Shown: positions 116-34,632 of the stretch, piece after piece
Numbering within the stretch: the stretch's first letter is position 1
Layout: the number at the start of each line of letters is the position of its first letter
IMG/VR virus record: IMGVR_UViG_3300030108_001743
Span: 1 to 34,790 of that record
Length of the DNA: 34,790 nt
DNA from: a virus
Strand: one strand, 5' to 3'
The notes under the pieces: model-generated
Database searches by the model: none
What the model was told of the DNA's origin: nothing
The model's input: only the letters and a program-made list of their open reading frames with translations
Translations under genes and position numbers: made by a program

Positions 116-136
116 TATGAACGAACTGCAATCCGA
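111..136 (+). repeat. TTCACTATGAACG-N7-ATCCGA repeat, copy A
   Basis: First of three dispersed non-coding copies of TTCACTATGAACG followed, after 7 variable bases, by ATCCGA or ATCGGG (others at 1345-1370 and 33940-33965). Four further copies share only the first part, TCACTATC (1278, 33708, 33804, 34693). All lie outside genes, close to hairpins. Function unknown. Confidence 0.65.
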
Positions 137-200
137 ACATGCGTTCGTTTCAGCTTCAGCTCTAACTTTATGACATTTATGTTACAATTTGCTAAATTAC

Positions 201-1445: not shown

Positions 1446-1534
1446 CTTGTGTCAACAAAATTCGGAGGAGGAAACCTCTTTACTAAAGATACAGGGTCCA
1501 TGGGACAAAAGCAAATGTAGTGTATTGTTTTTTT

Positions 1535-1756
1535 ATGTCGTGGTTGGAGAGGGCGAATTGTCGTGGGCTTGGCCATGATTTGTTTTATAGCGACAGCGTG
1601 AACAGGGCGAGAAACGTATGCGATAATTGTGATGTTGTTCATGAGTGTTTGCAGGCTAGTTTTGTTGAGGAACCGATAGATCAGATATGGGGTATTCGGG
1701 GTGGGCTTACTCCGAAAGAGCGTCAGCGGTTTCGTATGATAAATAAAATTTATTGA
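1535..1756 (+). CDS. whiB: WhiB-family [4Fe-4S] transcription regulator
   Basis: 73 residues from this ATG; an upstream in-frame GTG at 1520 would add five. The Wbl pattern is complete: a first Cys (in RANC), then C-x2-C-x5-C (VCDNCDVVHEC) as cluster ligands, the turn WGIRGG, and a basic C-terminal tail (KERQRFR) for DNA contact. Wbl proteins bind the primary sigma factor of Actinobacteria, and phage copies can repress host whiB genes and block superinfection. There is no obvious ribosome binding site before the ATG. A TATTGT at 1523-1528 lies 7 nt upstream, which would allow a leaderless transcript, but its -35 match is weak. This gene is the best single pointer to an actinobacterial host. 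Confidence 0.9.
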   Translation: MSWLERANCRGLGHDLFYSDSVNRARNVCDNCDVVHECLQASFVEEPIDQIWGIRGGLTPKERQRFRMINKIY

Positions 1757-4752: not shown

Positions 4753-4953
4753 ATGGAAGCACCAGAAACCCCTACTAGGGACAAAAACGATCAGTTGATT
4801 GCCATGAGGATACCGCAAACTTTGTTAAACCAAGTTGACCAGTTAGCGATACACAACGGCCAGACTAGATCAGGTATGATACGAGATGCGTTAAACGCAT
4901 ACACGGAAAAACATTACGGACCAATAGCAGACGATATAAACGATCTGTTGTGA
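4753..4953 (+). CDS. Ribbon-helix-helix (CopG/Arc-like) DNA-binding protein
   Basis: 66 residues from this ATG, which has GGAG 9 nt upstream; the frame stays open further left, but that part overlaps the zinc-ribbon gene. Residues about 14-53 (LIAMRIPQTLLNQVDQL...GQTRSGMIRDALNAYTEKH) form a complete RHH domain: a strand with M-R-I, a first helix, the GQTRS turn, and a second helix. RHH proteins dimerise and repress promoters through the strand, so it could act on the repeated TTGACA promoters. The next start overlaps its stop. Confidence 0.8.
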   Translation: MEAPETPTRDKNDQLIAMRIPQTLLNQVDQLAIHNGQTRSGMIRDALNAYTEKHYGPIADDINDLL

Positions 4954-12149: not shown

Positions 12150-12954
12150 AACCCTCAACCTCTATTCCGTAACCAGCATTTTTTAACGAATTTAGTTCAT
12201 CATCTGTAAAATCAGTAGGGGATTCATGCCCACCATATATTGTTCGAGAAACTGTACTCATATCTGCCGGTTGTCGAGTCGTTACCGACCCATCGTTTAA
12301 TATAAATATATTAACGCCTCTAGCCGTTGGAGGATAGAATCTCCGCAAGTTCCTAGCAGGGCTAATAGTCGGAAACCTAGTAACGTCTAATGTCGGAACC
12401 GTATTTTCAAATACAGGCACATACTTTGTATTGAATAATAGCTGATCTATAGACGTTGAAGCACTAATTGTAGACACACTTATATTCTGGTCCATACTGA
12501 CGGTCACAGACGGCGTTGTAGACGTTCCGCCTATAACTGATGGTTCTACACCAGCGTTGCCTGAAATCGTCGCAGACGGCGTTGTAGCAGCCGTAGAAAC
12601 GACGCTAGGAGCAACGTTCGCTGTGCCAGATATAGTCGCAGATGGCGTAGTCGTAACACCAGCAATAACACTAGGAGCTACGCTAGCCGTACCCGATATT
12701 GTCGCCGACGGCGTAGTGGTAGCGCCAGCAATAACGCTAGGAGCTACACTAGCTGTCCCTGATACAGTCGTAGCAGGAACAGTCGTCGTACCTGCAATCA
12801 CCGCAACGGCAGCATTCGCAAATGCTGTTACGGTTACAGCCGGAACAGTCGCAGAACACGCTATTGTTGATGCGTTTACTGTCGCATCTGCCTGCGAATA
12901 GTTTACGCTTGAACTTGCGTAGGTAACCGCAGATGAACTGTAGTTTATTGTCAC
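12136..12954 (-). CDS. Virion protein with 22-residue tandem repeats
   Basis: 272 residues from a GTG with GAGG upstream. Residues about 30-165 are six degenerate 22-residue repeats rich in Ala, Thr, Ser and Val (core TTPSATISGTASVAPSVIAG), likely a beta-structured or extended stalk. The last 95 residues form a separate domain (NLRRFYPPTARGVNIFILNDG...YGGHESPTDFTDDELNSLKNAGYGIEVEGY). A stalk plus a small globular domain suggests a capsid decoration, whisker or tail-associated protein. Repeat number probably changes by slippage. Confidence 0.6.
   Translation of the reverse strand: MTINYSSSAVTYASSSVNYSQADATVNASTIACSATVPAVTVTAFANAAVAVIAGTTTVPATTVSGTASVAPSVIAGATTTPSATISGTASVAPSVIAGVTTTPSATISGTANVAPSVVSTAATTPSATISGNAGVEPSVIGGTSTTPSVTVSMDQNISVSTISASTSIDQLLFNTKYVPVFENTVPTLDVTRFPTISPARNLRRFYPPTARGVNIFILNDGSVTTRQPADMSTVSRTIYGGHESPTDFTDDELNSLKNAGYGIEVEGYATV
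12490..12850 (-). repeat. 66-bp coding tandem repeats
   Basis: About five to six 66-bp units inside the 272-codon gene, edges approximate. The three central units are closest; many differences are synonymous, so the protein repeat is better kept than the DNA. Confidence 0.65.
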
Positions 12955-31877: not shown

Positions 31878-32137
31878 TTTTTGCCCCTGTTCCTAGCACG
31901 ATTCTTAGAAGGATTCTCCAACGTAAAACCGCCACCCTTCTTATGCGACACATCTTTACCGCCCTTACCAGCAATACCACGATTACGACGCTCACGCTGC
32001 AAATCAGCACGATACTTCTTACGCTTCTTCGTAGAATGATACTTCGTATCATACGCTTTCTTCTTAGCCCTAGCCTTAGGATTCTTACGATAATACGCAG
32101 CAGTTCGCTTAGGCTTCGCTACTTTACGAGGAGCCAC
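31874..32137 (-). CDS. Highly basic protein, conserved marine-phage type
   Basis: 87 residues, about 40 percent Lys plus Arg. Blocks AYYRKNPKARAKKKAYDTKYH and GKDVSHKKGGGFTLENPSKNRARNRGKK resemble a small protein I recall from memory in cyanophages and other marine phages; its function is unknown. Strong positive charge suggests DNA or RNA binding. Part of the basic cassette before terminase. Confidence 0.65.
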   Translation of the reverse strand: MAPRKVAKPKRTAAYYRKNPKARAKKKAYDTKYHSTKKRKKYRADLQRERRNRGIAGKGGKDVSHKKGGGFTLENPSKNRARNRGKK

Positions 32138-32140
32138 ACA

Positions 32141-32425
32141 TCACCACTTAGTCTTATTAGCCCAATACGCAGCAGACATCTTACCCTTAGCAATGTTCTT
32201 CGCATGTCGAGCCTTAAACGACTTACGCCTAGCCTTACCTTTAGCAGTCTTAGGATTCTTACCAGCACCAGACACACCCTGCTGACCAAACCTAATAGTC
32301 TTAATCTTGTTACCCTCCTTAGCCACAACAACATGCGACTTCGTAGGATGGTTAGGCGTTTTCTTAACTTGGTTATACCTAGACACACCAACTTTAGCTA
32401 AACGAGGATCTTTCTTTTTAGCCAT
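32141..32425 (-). CDS. Basic protein, conserved marine-phage type
   Basis: 94 residues. Blocks HPTKSHVVVAKEGNKIKTIRFGQQG and KARRKSFKARHAKNIAKGKMSAAYWANKTKW are, from memory, well conserved in unrelated marine phages. The second block is a Lys/Arg/Ala helix followed by an aromatic end. No enzymatic motif. The preceding stop overlaps its start by one base (TAATG). Confidence 0.7.
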   Translation of the reverse strand: MAKKKDPRLAKVGVSRYNQVKKTPNHPTKSHVVVAKEGNKIKTIRFGQQGVSGAGKNPKTAKGKARRKSFKARHAKNIAKGKMSAAYWANKTKW

Positions 32426-32622
32426 TACTTTTTCTTTTTAGCAGGTTTTCTTTTCTTAGCTGTCTTAGCTGACTCCCTAAACGCTTTAGCAGTAGGCGCA
32501 CCCTTAGAACCCGGCTTACGCATCTTTTCACCAGAACCAGCCTTAATGCGTTTACGTTTAGCATGTATATTAGCGTACAAACCTTTTTTAGAACTAGCCT
32601 TTTTCTTTTTTTTAGCAGCCAT
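32425..32622 (-). CDS. Small Lys-rich protein (DUF5872-like, from memory)
   Basis: 65 residues. Poly-Lys at both ends flank GLYANIHAKRKRIKAGSGEK and RKPGSKGAPTAKAFRESAKTAK, a motif I associate with a small family of unknown function in aquatic viruses and bacteria. Starts in the TAATG overlap with the gene before it. Probably nucleic-acid binding. Confidence 0.65.
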   Translation of the reverse strand: MAAKKKKKASSKKGLYANIHAKRKRIKAGSGEKMRKPGSKGAPTAKAFRESAKTAKKRKPAKKKK

Positions 32623-32771
32623 TATTTACGCCTCTTTGTCGCTCGTTTAGCTTTTGTACGCATATTACGAGTACGCAAACGACCATCAACAGAACCAAAC
32701 CCTTTACCAGATTTTGGTCTATATCTAGCCTTTTTTTTATTACCCGCCTTGTGCATAGGTTTATGTGGCAT
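32622..32771 (-). CDS. 49-residue Lys/Arg-rich protein
   Basis: 49 residues of which nearly half are Lys, Arg or His; contains KSGKGFGSVDGRLRTRNMRTKAKRATKRRK. Its stop overlaps the next ATG, and its own ATG overlaps the stop of the gene before it (TAATG both sides), which strongly supports coding. Likely DNA-binding. Confidence 0.6.
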   Translation of the reverse strand: MPHKPMHKAGNKKKARYRPKSGKGFGSVDGRLRTRNMRTKAKRATKRRK

Positions 32772-32863
32772 TACATTCTCCTCTTCATTTTTTTCTTTGC
32801 TTTTTTCTTTTTAGGCATAACCCTTTTTCTAGGTTTCATAGCCTTACCATAACCATACGCCAT
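32771..32863 (-). CDS. 30-residue poly-basic peptide
   Basis: 30 residues. After an aromatic N-terminus (MAYGYGKAMKP) it is almost only Lys, Arg and Met. AAAGGAG lies 9 nt upstream of the ATG and the stop overlaps the next ATG. First of the chain of basic genes. Charge suggests binding to packaged DNA. Confidence 0.55.
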   Translation of the reverse strand: MAYGYGKAMKPRKRVMPKKKKAKKKMKRRM

Positions 32864-32875
32864 AACAATTCTCCT

Positions 32876-32974
32876 TTACTGACAACTCTCACAAATGTCA
32901 GGATTCTCTAACCCACACTCTAACACCTCATCATCATCAACATCAAACACCTCATCAAAATCTTCAAAAAACAT
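32876..32974 (-). CDS. 32-residue acidic peptide with Cys motif
   Basis: 32 residues, opposite in charge to its neighbours: FFEDFDEVFDVDDDEVLE, then ECGLENPDICESCQ with three Cys that may bind metal. The start has a near-perfect ribosome binding site, AAGGAGG, 6 nt upstream, the best in the window. The frame is open far upstream, but that part is low-complexity and non-coding. First gene of the leftward block. Confidence 0.6.
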   Translation of the reverse strand: MFFEDFDEVFDVDDDEVLECGLENPDICESCQ

Positions 32975-33069
32975 GCAAAACCTCCTTGCTAAAAAAACGT
33001 AACCAAGGTAACCTAACACAAGGCAACAAACAAAAAAGGGTATTGTGGACCCTTGACCAACCACAACAA

Positions 33070-33084
33070 CGCTTGTAAGAAGCG
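33070..33084. other. Small hairpin
   Basis: CGCTT and AAGCG pair across a GTAAG loop. It lies at the edge of the hairpin-rich block; the perfect dyad GGTGA-G-TCACC follows at 33099-33109 and looks like an operator or another small hairpin. Confidence 0.4.
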
Positions 33085-33127
33085 CCCGACTAACCATCGG
33101 TGAGTCACCCGTCAGAAGGGTAACCGC

Positions 33128-33166
33128 CCCCTGTGACAACGCAAAGAGGAAATGAGCGCACAGGGG
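33128..33166. ncRNA. Possible structured RNA element
   Basis: CCCCTGTG (33128-33135) pairs perfectly with CACAGGGG (33159-33166); inside, CGC and GCG can pair. The octamer CGCACAGG recurs 13 bases after its first copy. There is no U tract, so it is not a simple terminator. If transcribed leftward it would lie in the leader of the microgene cassette. Confidence 0.35.
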
Positions 33167-33260
33167 CGTAACGCACAGGACAAAGCGATTACAAGGCCAA
33201 AGCAGCCTCAATGCTTGGGAGGTTCCCAAGGGAATCCACGCCCAAACACCAAACCCCTTA

Positions 33261-33307
33261 CAAACACAGGCCTCTAGACCCTCTAGACCCTCCACACATG
33301 TAACAAA
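33261..33307. repeat. CTCTAGA-containing repeat, copy 1
   Basis: About 47 bp that recur, diverged, at 33364-33411. Inside is a 9-bp tandem pair (CTCTAGACC at 33272 and 33281) followed by CTCCACACA. Confidence 0.65.
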
Positions 33308-33322
33308 AGTAACCTCCGTAAC
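33300..33322. repeat. Three GTAAC elements with 9-bp period
   Basis: GTAAC at 33300, 33309 and 33318, each 9 bp apart. A pair with the same spacing stands at 32999 and 33008. Confidence 0.6.
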
Positions 33323-33363
33323 AAACAATAACACCCCCGCACAACAACATATAACAAAAAACA

Positions 33364-33411
33364 CAAACACAAGGCCTCTAGAGTCTCTAGACTCTCCACA
33401 CACATAACAAA
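33364..33411. repeat. CTCTAGA-containing repeat, copy 2
   Basis: Diverged copy of 33261-33307. The 9-bp pair is CTCTAGAGT (33376) and CTCTAGACT (33385), which also creates the inverted repeat GAGTCT/AGACTC. Confidence 0.65.
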
Positions 33412-33420
33412 CAACCACAA

Positions 33421-33456
33421 AATGTCACAAATGTCACGAATGTCACGAATGTCACG
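33421..33456. repeat. Four AATGTCACG iteron-like repeats
   Basis: Four direct 9-bp units, three identical and the first ending in A. They place GTCAC at 33424, 33433, 33442 and 33451. They look like short iterons, as found at replication origins or operator arrays. Confidence 0.8.
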
Positions 33457-33814
33457 GCCCCAAACACAACAAACACCCACCACAACAAACACAAAACACC
33501 AACCACACAAAACAAACAAAACACAACAGCCCCACAAAACCAAAACACCCAACAAACACATAGCATACAGGTGTATATAGGGTACCAAGGCACATGCCCC
33601 CATTGTAATTTGCCACAAATAAACAAAACCTACCCACCGTACCCCTGTAAATTAGCGAGACAAGCCGGTAGGGTACCATGTTTTTTCTTGGCTTTGCGCT
33701 AGGGGTGTCACTATCGCCAAAAAAATTTGCGGCTCGCCTTCGCTTACGCTCCGGCTCGCTGGGGAGCTGGTTGTTCTGCAAGGTTGTTGTTGCCCCTCTG
33801 TGTTCACTATCCTT

Positions 33815-33965: not shown

Positions 33966-33982
33966 GCGAACAGAAAGCGAAC

Positions 33983-34012
33983 ACAATATGACTTTTATAT
34001 GACAATGTTCAA
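33983..34012 (-). promoter_or_regulatory. Candidate leftward promoter, divergent from P4
   Basis: Leftward TTGAAC (34012-34007), 18-bp spacer, TATTGT (33988-33983). The start of the spacer, ATTGTCATATAA, resembles the ATTGTTATACAA of P1 and P2. Its -35 box lies 6 bp from that of P4. It could start the long leftward transcript. Confidence 0.4.
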
Positions 34013-34018
34013 AAACGC

Positions 34019-34047
34019 TTGAAATGTATAACGTCATACGCTACAAT
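34019..34047 (+). promoter_or_regulatory. Promoter P4
   Basis: TTGAAA at 34019-34024, 17-bp spacer, TACAAT at 34042-34047. Predicted start 34054 is the A of an in-frame ATG, and ATGTCAAC at that point is identical to the start after P1. Confidence 0.75.
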
Positions 34048-34053
34048 CTAGAT

Positions 34054-34632
34054 ATGTCAACGAAACAACAAAAGGAAGAAATTATGACAGCCGATGAAAC
34101 TGATTCATATTACAACCCAACCGACAGAACTTACATCAACGATGTGATAGACCTAGCCGAAGAAGCTATGTTTCATATCCTTGATGAAATGTCAGACAGC
34201 TTTGACAGCCTAGAAGATTTGCAAAACTGGTGGATCACTGAGGACTACCCAAACGGCGGACATGTTGACCTGTGGGAATTTATCAGCGGACAAGCAGACC
34301 GGAGTCATTATGTATTTACCAACTGGCAAGCCGTCAAAGTAGTTACAGAGTGGTCAAACAATCCAGACGCATACGCAGATTACGGCATTCACCTAAGCGA
34401 AAAATATATTAAGGATAACGGCGGAAACCCTTTACACGTTGTAGCCGTACAGATGGCATATTATTCAATGATGGCAGATATCGCCGATCAGATTAACCAC
34501 ACTCTAGACCTTAAAAACGGTCAAGCAAAAACAGCCGACAGAATGAAAATCTACAACGACTGGGAAAAAAGTAGAAAAGAAACTTTCTCAGTCGGTCTTA
34601 TGTGGAAGCTAGCAAATGAAGGAAAAATCTAG
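34054..34632 (+). CDS. Acidic protein, function unknown (possible early gene)
   Basis: 192 residues from the ATG at 34054, which lies on the predicted transcription start of P4 (leaderless); an in-frame ATG at 34084 with AAAGGAAG upstream would give 182. An ATG at 34024 lies inside the promoter and is unlikely. Acidic, helical, rich in Tyr, Trp and Asp: DVIDLAEEAMFHILDEMSDSFDSLEDLQNWW, NPLHVVAVQMAYYSMMADIADQINHTL, YNDWEKSRKETFSVGLMWKL. No motif recognised. It is alone between P4 and a strong terminator. By promoter type it is probably expressed with the other early genes and may act on the host. Confidence 0.75.
   Translation: MSTKQQKEEIMTADETDSYYNPTDRTYINDVIDLAEEAMFHILDEMSDSFDSLEDLQNWWITEDYPNGGHVDLWEFISGQADRSHYVFTNWQAVKVVTEWSNNPDAYADYGIHLSEKYIKDNGGNPLHVVAVQMAYYSMMADIADQINHTLDLKNGQAKTADRMKIYNDWEKSRKETFSVGLMWKLANEGKI

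Follow-up and report, generated by a model that had tools for sequence, protein, structure and literature searches.

The leader of the leftward late operon in a 34,790-bp virus record (the window, i.e., the whole stretch of DNA analysed) carries a previously uncatalogued, strongly conserved structured RNA and, beside it, clusters of short GTNAC and CTAGAG elements that recur with a 9-bp step. While the first-pass annotation had described the phased elements as the strongest unexplained pattern of the window, this rank belongs to the structured RNA, which it had missed and which is the stronger and more remarkable finding. The RNA probably acts in cis on the late transcript as an element of its own, and the phased elements are tentatively read as sites on duplex DNA at which a dimeric or oligomeric protein regulates late transcription.

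In this record, the early genes face rightward and the late genes leftward, and the gene content includes a terminase, a capsid protein, an exonuclease, an annealing protein and an SSB. The presence of a WhiB-family regulator, given the known range of this family, suggests that the host of this uncultivated phage probably belongs to the actinobacteria. The phage also encodes a ribbon-helix-helix (RHH) protein; in a monomer model built from the single sequence, the helices fit the RHH fold and the strand was not formed. The consensus of the actinobacterial LexA/SOS box is CGAAC-N4-GTTCG, and the one dyad of this kind in the window, CGAACATGCGTTCG, immediately precedes an early promoter (TTGACA-17-TACCAT), a position hinting at SOS control of the early genes; none was found in the late leader. 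Between the leader and the terminase gene lies a series of very short ORFs that are rich in Lys/Arg and highly basic (32119-32850), and stretches resembling them have low-identity matches in diverse marine phages. A 66-bp tandem repeat of about 3 copies is found within a late gene (12602-12798). For the 196-aa protein encoded next to the region (34042-34629), a search matched only one close relative and identified no informative family.

On the minus strand, a sigma-70-like promoter (33588-33560) is followed by a G/U-rich leader, by two modules that each consist of a GTNAC array and a CTAGAG pair, by the structured RNA, by a GTTAC pair and by the first late ORF, which is preceded by a ribosome-binding site (Table 1). 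The promoter would place the start of late transcription near 33553. An alignment of the upstream regions showed a recognisable promoter block in nearly all relatives, with a -10-like block (TGCTAT, TGATAT or TTATCG-like) directly before the G/T-rich leader; a generic promoter scan of the window did not return the TTGGTA/TGCTAT late promoter. Upstream of the structured RNA, the leader strand has a G+T content of about 80%, as judged from the composition of the window and its relatives. A block GTGCC(G/T)(A/T)GG(C/T)AC...TGCTATCGGTGTTTTGG, covering 33554-33594 and sequence upstream on the minus strand, is kept across the clade, and part of it forms a GTGCC-GA-GGCAC dyad that overlaps the -35 position. 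At the other end of the leader, the GTTAC pair is retained in L002, L003 and L021, and the acidic ORF that opens the late operon is kept in three close relatives.

Table 1. Features of the late leader and of related loci in the window.
Feature	Coordinates	Strand	Details	Basis
LexA-box-like dyad upstream of first early gene	134..147	.	CGAACATGCGTTCG	
WhiB-family regulator	1520..1756	+		Pfam Whib 1e-12
Ribbon-helix-helix (CopG-like) protein	4753..4953	+		Pfam RHH_1 2.4e-05, exceeds curated cut-off
Short acidic ORF, first of late operon	32876..32974	-	MFFEDFDEVFDVDDDEV...	GGAGG precedes
Untranslated leader of leftward late operon	32975..33553	-		Base composition; no frame kept in RNA part
Two direct GTTAC between RNA and first ORF	32999..33012	-	9-bp step	
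Conserved structured RNA	33033..33263	-	9 helices and likely GGGU/ACCC pseudoknot	Covariance model R1
Module B, CTAGAG pair	33272..33287	-	9-bp step; TCTAGAGGGTCTAGAG	
Module B, three direct GTTAC	33300..33322	-	9-bp step; spacers GGAG, TTTT	
Module A, CTAGAG pair	33376..33391	-	9-bp step; TCTAGAGACTCTAGAG	
Module A, four direct GTGAC	33424..33455	-	9-bp step; GTGACATTC GTGACATTC GTGACATTT GTGAC	
Putative -10 of leftward late promoter	33560..33565	-	TGCTAT, 17 bp from -35	Conserved block in relatives
Putative -35 of leftward late promoter	33583..33588	-	TTGGTA; conserved context GTGCCTTGGTACC / GTGCCGAGGCAC	Read from sequence

The structured RNA is near-identical among close relatives, while the adjoining coding sequence diverges. 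When ten relatives were aligned by sequence alone with MAFFT, the alignment supported the nine helices as well as the pseudoknot; both sides had changed in 13 pairs, and no equally good result arose in 500 shuffles. The covariance model matched the RNA, at an unchanged position, in more than 30 relatives. In the model-based alignment, compensatory change was found in 42 of 52 pairs, although the 13-pair MAFFT count is the cleaner one since this alignment was fitted to the model; 92.8% of cells were paired, as compared to 38-45% when partners were slid, and none of 500 shuffles reached as high a value. Thermodynamically, the single sequence gave a modest signal (z -2.3).

Searches against known RNAs did not identify a family for this element; none of the 4227 Rfam covariance models matched it at the gathering score, a relaxed Rfam threshold returned only a chance match elsewhere (E 0.058), and a tRNA/tmRNA search found none. 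Words from the RNA had 12 chance matches in bacterial genomes, none of which scored with the covariance model, and all three forward frames of the RNA region contain stops in every relative checked. A T-run follows the pseudoknot in the window but is not conserved, and the RNA was therefore read as an element that acts in cis within the leader and not as a small RNA that is terminated separately. The put antiterminator RNA of phage HK022, which causes RNA polymerase to pass terminators, is likewise folded and lies in the leader of a long operon. Judged by its predicted fold and position, the RNA described here resembles put in heading such an operon but differs from it in its size (about 200 nt), its nine helices and its pseudoknot.

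The phased elements are found on the plus strand as GTAAC at 32999, 33008, 33300, 33309 and 33318, as GTCAC at 33424, 33433, 33442 and 33451 and as CTCTAGA at 33272, 33281, 33376 and 33385, exactly where the first-pass annotation had placed them and with the 9-bp steps that it gave. Additional copies within the structured RNA (GTAAC at 33120 and 33168, GTCAC at 33104) are unphased. The 706-bp stretch 32975-33680 contains 6 GTMAC pairs at 9 bp, whereas none of 2000 dinucleotide-preserving shuffles of this stretch contained more than 1, and the clusters are thus not an effect of A/C-rich composition. In a motif-free test of the same stretch, 45 5-mers recurred at lag 9 as compared to 2.5 +/- 2.3 in shuffles, with lag 9 standing well above every other lag from 6 to 30. 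Tandem Repeats Finder also detected the 9-bp period, as an array of 4.0 copies at 33421-33456 (96%) and as pairs at 33271 and 33376. All 6 sites of the form GTNACNNNNGTNAC (GTNAC-N4-GTNAC) in the whole record are located within the 457-bp stretch 32999-33455, and GTNAC itself is neither avoided nor enriched across the record (160 seen, 145.5 expected). Masking GTNAC and CTAGA reduced the lag-9 z from 32 to 5 in close relatives and from 13 to 3 in distinct relatives; a weak lag-9 excess persists, but as masking removes most of it, the period belongs to these elements and is not a general property of the low-complexity leader. The GTTAC array has identical cores and varying spacers (GTTAC-GGAG-GTTAC-TTTT-GTTAC), a pattern more consistent with a recognised core than with bare slippage.

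Relatives were collected as terminase-based loci, and three close relatives (L002, L003 and L021) were found to share all or part of the two modules. Close relatives are few and partly fragmentary. The number of GTGAC copies is 4 in the window, 3 in L021 and 2 in L002, both CTAGAG copies of module B have changed jointly to GCTAGAGGCGCTAGAG in L002 and L021, and L003 is missing module A and most of module B, a loss that could be an assembly effect. The changes by whole 9-bp units and the loss in L003 indicate that repeat turnover also acts on the array. Among other relatives, the more distant L014 has the direct sequence GTTACAAAAGTTACAAAGTTAC in its leader, L067 has a near-match direct copy (TGACACTTATGACACTTGTGACACTTGTG), L006 shows the 9-bp geometry upstream of the promoter (GTTACAAACGTAAC), and L015 carries eight inverted GTGACN4GTCAC dyads, seven of which are clustered just upstream of the promoter. 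The phasing therefore recurs in the close relatives, in L014, in L015 and, as a near-match, in L067, but most sister phages, as well as most relatives that carry the RNA, do not have the array.

In a reduced set of relatives, 21 GTNAC pairs at 9 bp were found in the intergenic sequence (31.8 kb) as compared to 8 in the late genes downstream (283 kb), representing an approximately 24-fold higher density with a sharp peak at 9; the 21 pairs come from five records (6 from the window, 5 from L002, 8 from L015 and 1 each from L006 and L014) and hence from few lineages. In sister phages, the sequence upstream of the late promoter carries CGAACN4GTTCG dyads, whose half-sites also have a 9-bp step, and dyads with a 4-bp spacer are the commonest class at this position. 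Both dyad types (GTNAC and CGAAC) occurred together in the region in none of the relatives examined, a sample too small for significance. A weaker class of repeats with an 11-bp step was observed on the early side of the intergenic region, as direct GTAAC/GTTAC repeats in L265 (four consecutively), L002, L012, L017 and L079 and as ATGAC in the window (33980-34060). Across all viral contigs, at least 119 stretches with four GTNAC at 9 bp were found, nearly all of them in open frames; among the matches listed, 7 of 119 were without a long open frame, and the structured RNA was absent from those tested.

The tentative assignment of the phased GTNAC elements to DNA is supported by their phasing, their confinement to the intergenic region, their recurrence in direct and inverted orientation and their place between a promoter-like element and the late genes. 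As the core of GTNAC is palindromic, direct and inverted copies present the same core, and the inverted dyads upstream of the L015 promoter, which resemble DNA operators, point to DNA as the form that is recognised. The CGAACN4GTTCG dyads at the equivalent place in sister phages and the TGTGACN4GTCACA dyads of unrelated viral contigs also count in favour of this reading. The array looks like a phage-specific regulatory site, as far as its sequence indicates. The regulator would load side by side where the leftward late transcription unit begins, with the adjoining CTAGAG pairs probably also belonging to its sites, and the loaded protein could repress, block or gate late transcription. Some observations weigh against an operator: the arrays in the window lie downstream of the likely transcription start and not at a classical operator position; their copy number shifts in steps of a complete 9-bp unit, which is the behaviour of any tandem repeat; and the absence of the array from most RNA-bearing relatives, together with its loss in L003, suggests that it is dispensable or replaceable.

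Known regulators provide partial parallels. The operator consensus of CRP/GlxR is TGTGA-N6-TCACA, which is fitted exactly by the L015 dyads (e.g., TGTGACAAACGTCACA), with half-sites that start 9 bp apart; this match is by sequence, and the copies in the window differ in being direct, in forming longer runs and in including GTTAC besides GTGAC. The CRP/GlxR inverted repeat is absent from the late leader of the window; among the relatives, the dyad is found only in those of the L015 type. The CGAACN4GTTCG dyads of the sister phages, which we take to be similar to actinobacterial LexA boxes, occupy the same intergenic place and share the 5+4+5 geometry of the array, but their half-site is unlike that of the window.

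We infer that a protein reads this DNA and acts as a regulator, with the phage RHH protein and a host factor as candidates. RHH dimers have been shown to read short elements, direct or inverted and several consecutively, as in Omega-type proteins (PMC9499535). As RHH proteins read such rows, the protein encoded by the phage is a natural candidate, even though the Omega/ParB sites of pSM19035 are 7-bp heptads of another element rather than elements with a 9-bp step. The beta-strand residues that presumably contact DNA, which were assigned by alignment with Arc, are identical in phages with CGAAC dyads (L012 and L017) and in the phage with GTGAC dyads (L015). Contact residues therefore do not track site type, which weighs against the phage RHH protein as the reader of the array. 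A literature search covering marine actinophages, RHH arrays, P4 iterons and phage leader RNAs provided analogies only.

A less likely, although credible, explanation is that 9-bp repeats turn over neutrally or nearly neutrally in a fast-evolving low-complexity leader and have no reader. The whole-unit changes of GTGAC (four, three and two copies), the concerted change of CTAGAG, the near-loss in L003 and the lag-9 excess left after masking are all consistent with such turnover. Evidence against it comes from the identical cores with wholly different spacers in the GTTAC array, from the same core and step in separate lineages and in another arrangement, and from the sharp family-wide peak at 9.

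Another explanation, about as likely as neutral turnover, is that GUKAC repeats, together with UCUAGAG, form an array for an RNA-binding protein in the G/U-rich, poorly structured leader and work with the downstream RNA, for example in processive antitermination or in translation control of the late operon. In the window, L002, L021, L014 and L067 (a near-match), the repeats are within the likely transcript and always read GTKAC on the leader strand; in the window, L014 and L067, approximately 40-60 nt separate the last array from the structured RNA, and this RNA is strongly conserved. The strand preference is nevertheless predicted by a G/T-rich leader alone, an RNA reader would not need the 9-bp geometry upstream of the promoter and in inverted form, as seen in L006 and L015, and most relatives have retained the RNA but carry no array. 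The first-pass annotation had proposed a repeat-reading protein or an RNA-binding array in preference to slippage; this proposal is partly supported, as the pattern exceeds chance, recurs in relatives and has varied spacers that favour a recognised core. The analysis yielded no support for an RNA-binding array, the nearest comparative evidence (the L015 dyads) points to DNA, and whole-unit turnover contributes as well. An extended version, in which a protein is brought to the nascent late transcript by the phased GUKAC and UCUAGAG elements and then passed on to the pseudoknotted RNA, so that the leader is a single RNA device that forms a new kind of complex for processive antitermination or a late switch in marine actinobacterial phages, appears quite improbable.

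Very little probability is assigned to replication-origin iterons at the point of divergence between early and late genes. Like the iteron origins of phages and plasmids, the array consists of short direct repeats with fixed spacing in a divergence region, and the cumulative GC skew has its minimum around this region, although skew is confounded with gene direction. Similar sites occur in other elements: the unrelated, integrase-bearing L209 has many direct GTGACAYTN repeats with a 9-bp step near a primase/helicase-like gene (1470-1740), which are perhaps origin iterons, and in the unrelated viral contigs L247 (14200-14500) and L250 (1050-1300), TGTGACN4GTCACA dyads adjoin clusters of DnaA-box-like sites. 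In L247, these dyads alternate with CGAACN4GTTCG. GTGAC-type sites with a 9-bp step thus appear to be used in unrelated elements (L145, L209 and L247-L250). The window itself has no cluster of DnaA boxes near the array and no recognised initiator gene, and the array is not conserved in the family. Finally, a coding origin of the 9-bp step, as three codons of a 180-aa ORF (32876-33418, minus strand) that is open in the window and includes VTEVTFVTC and EGLEGL, was rejected, as the frames of the relatives are closed in the RNA region, close relatives differ by indels of 1-2 bases that disrupt the frame, base pairs covary instead and the GTGAC array lies outside this ORF.

For phages of this type, the array would represent a tractable case of operator turnover in uncultivated phages, in which core, orientation and number change fast while the 9-bp geometry stays. 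The RNA is new, well supported and common to a large clade of uncultivated, probably actinobacterial phages, in which it always heads the late operon. It can serve as a marker for finding these phages and, if it acts in cis, would reveal how they switch on or extend late transcription.
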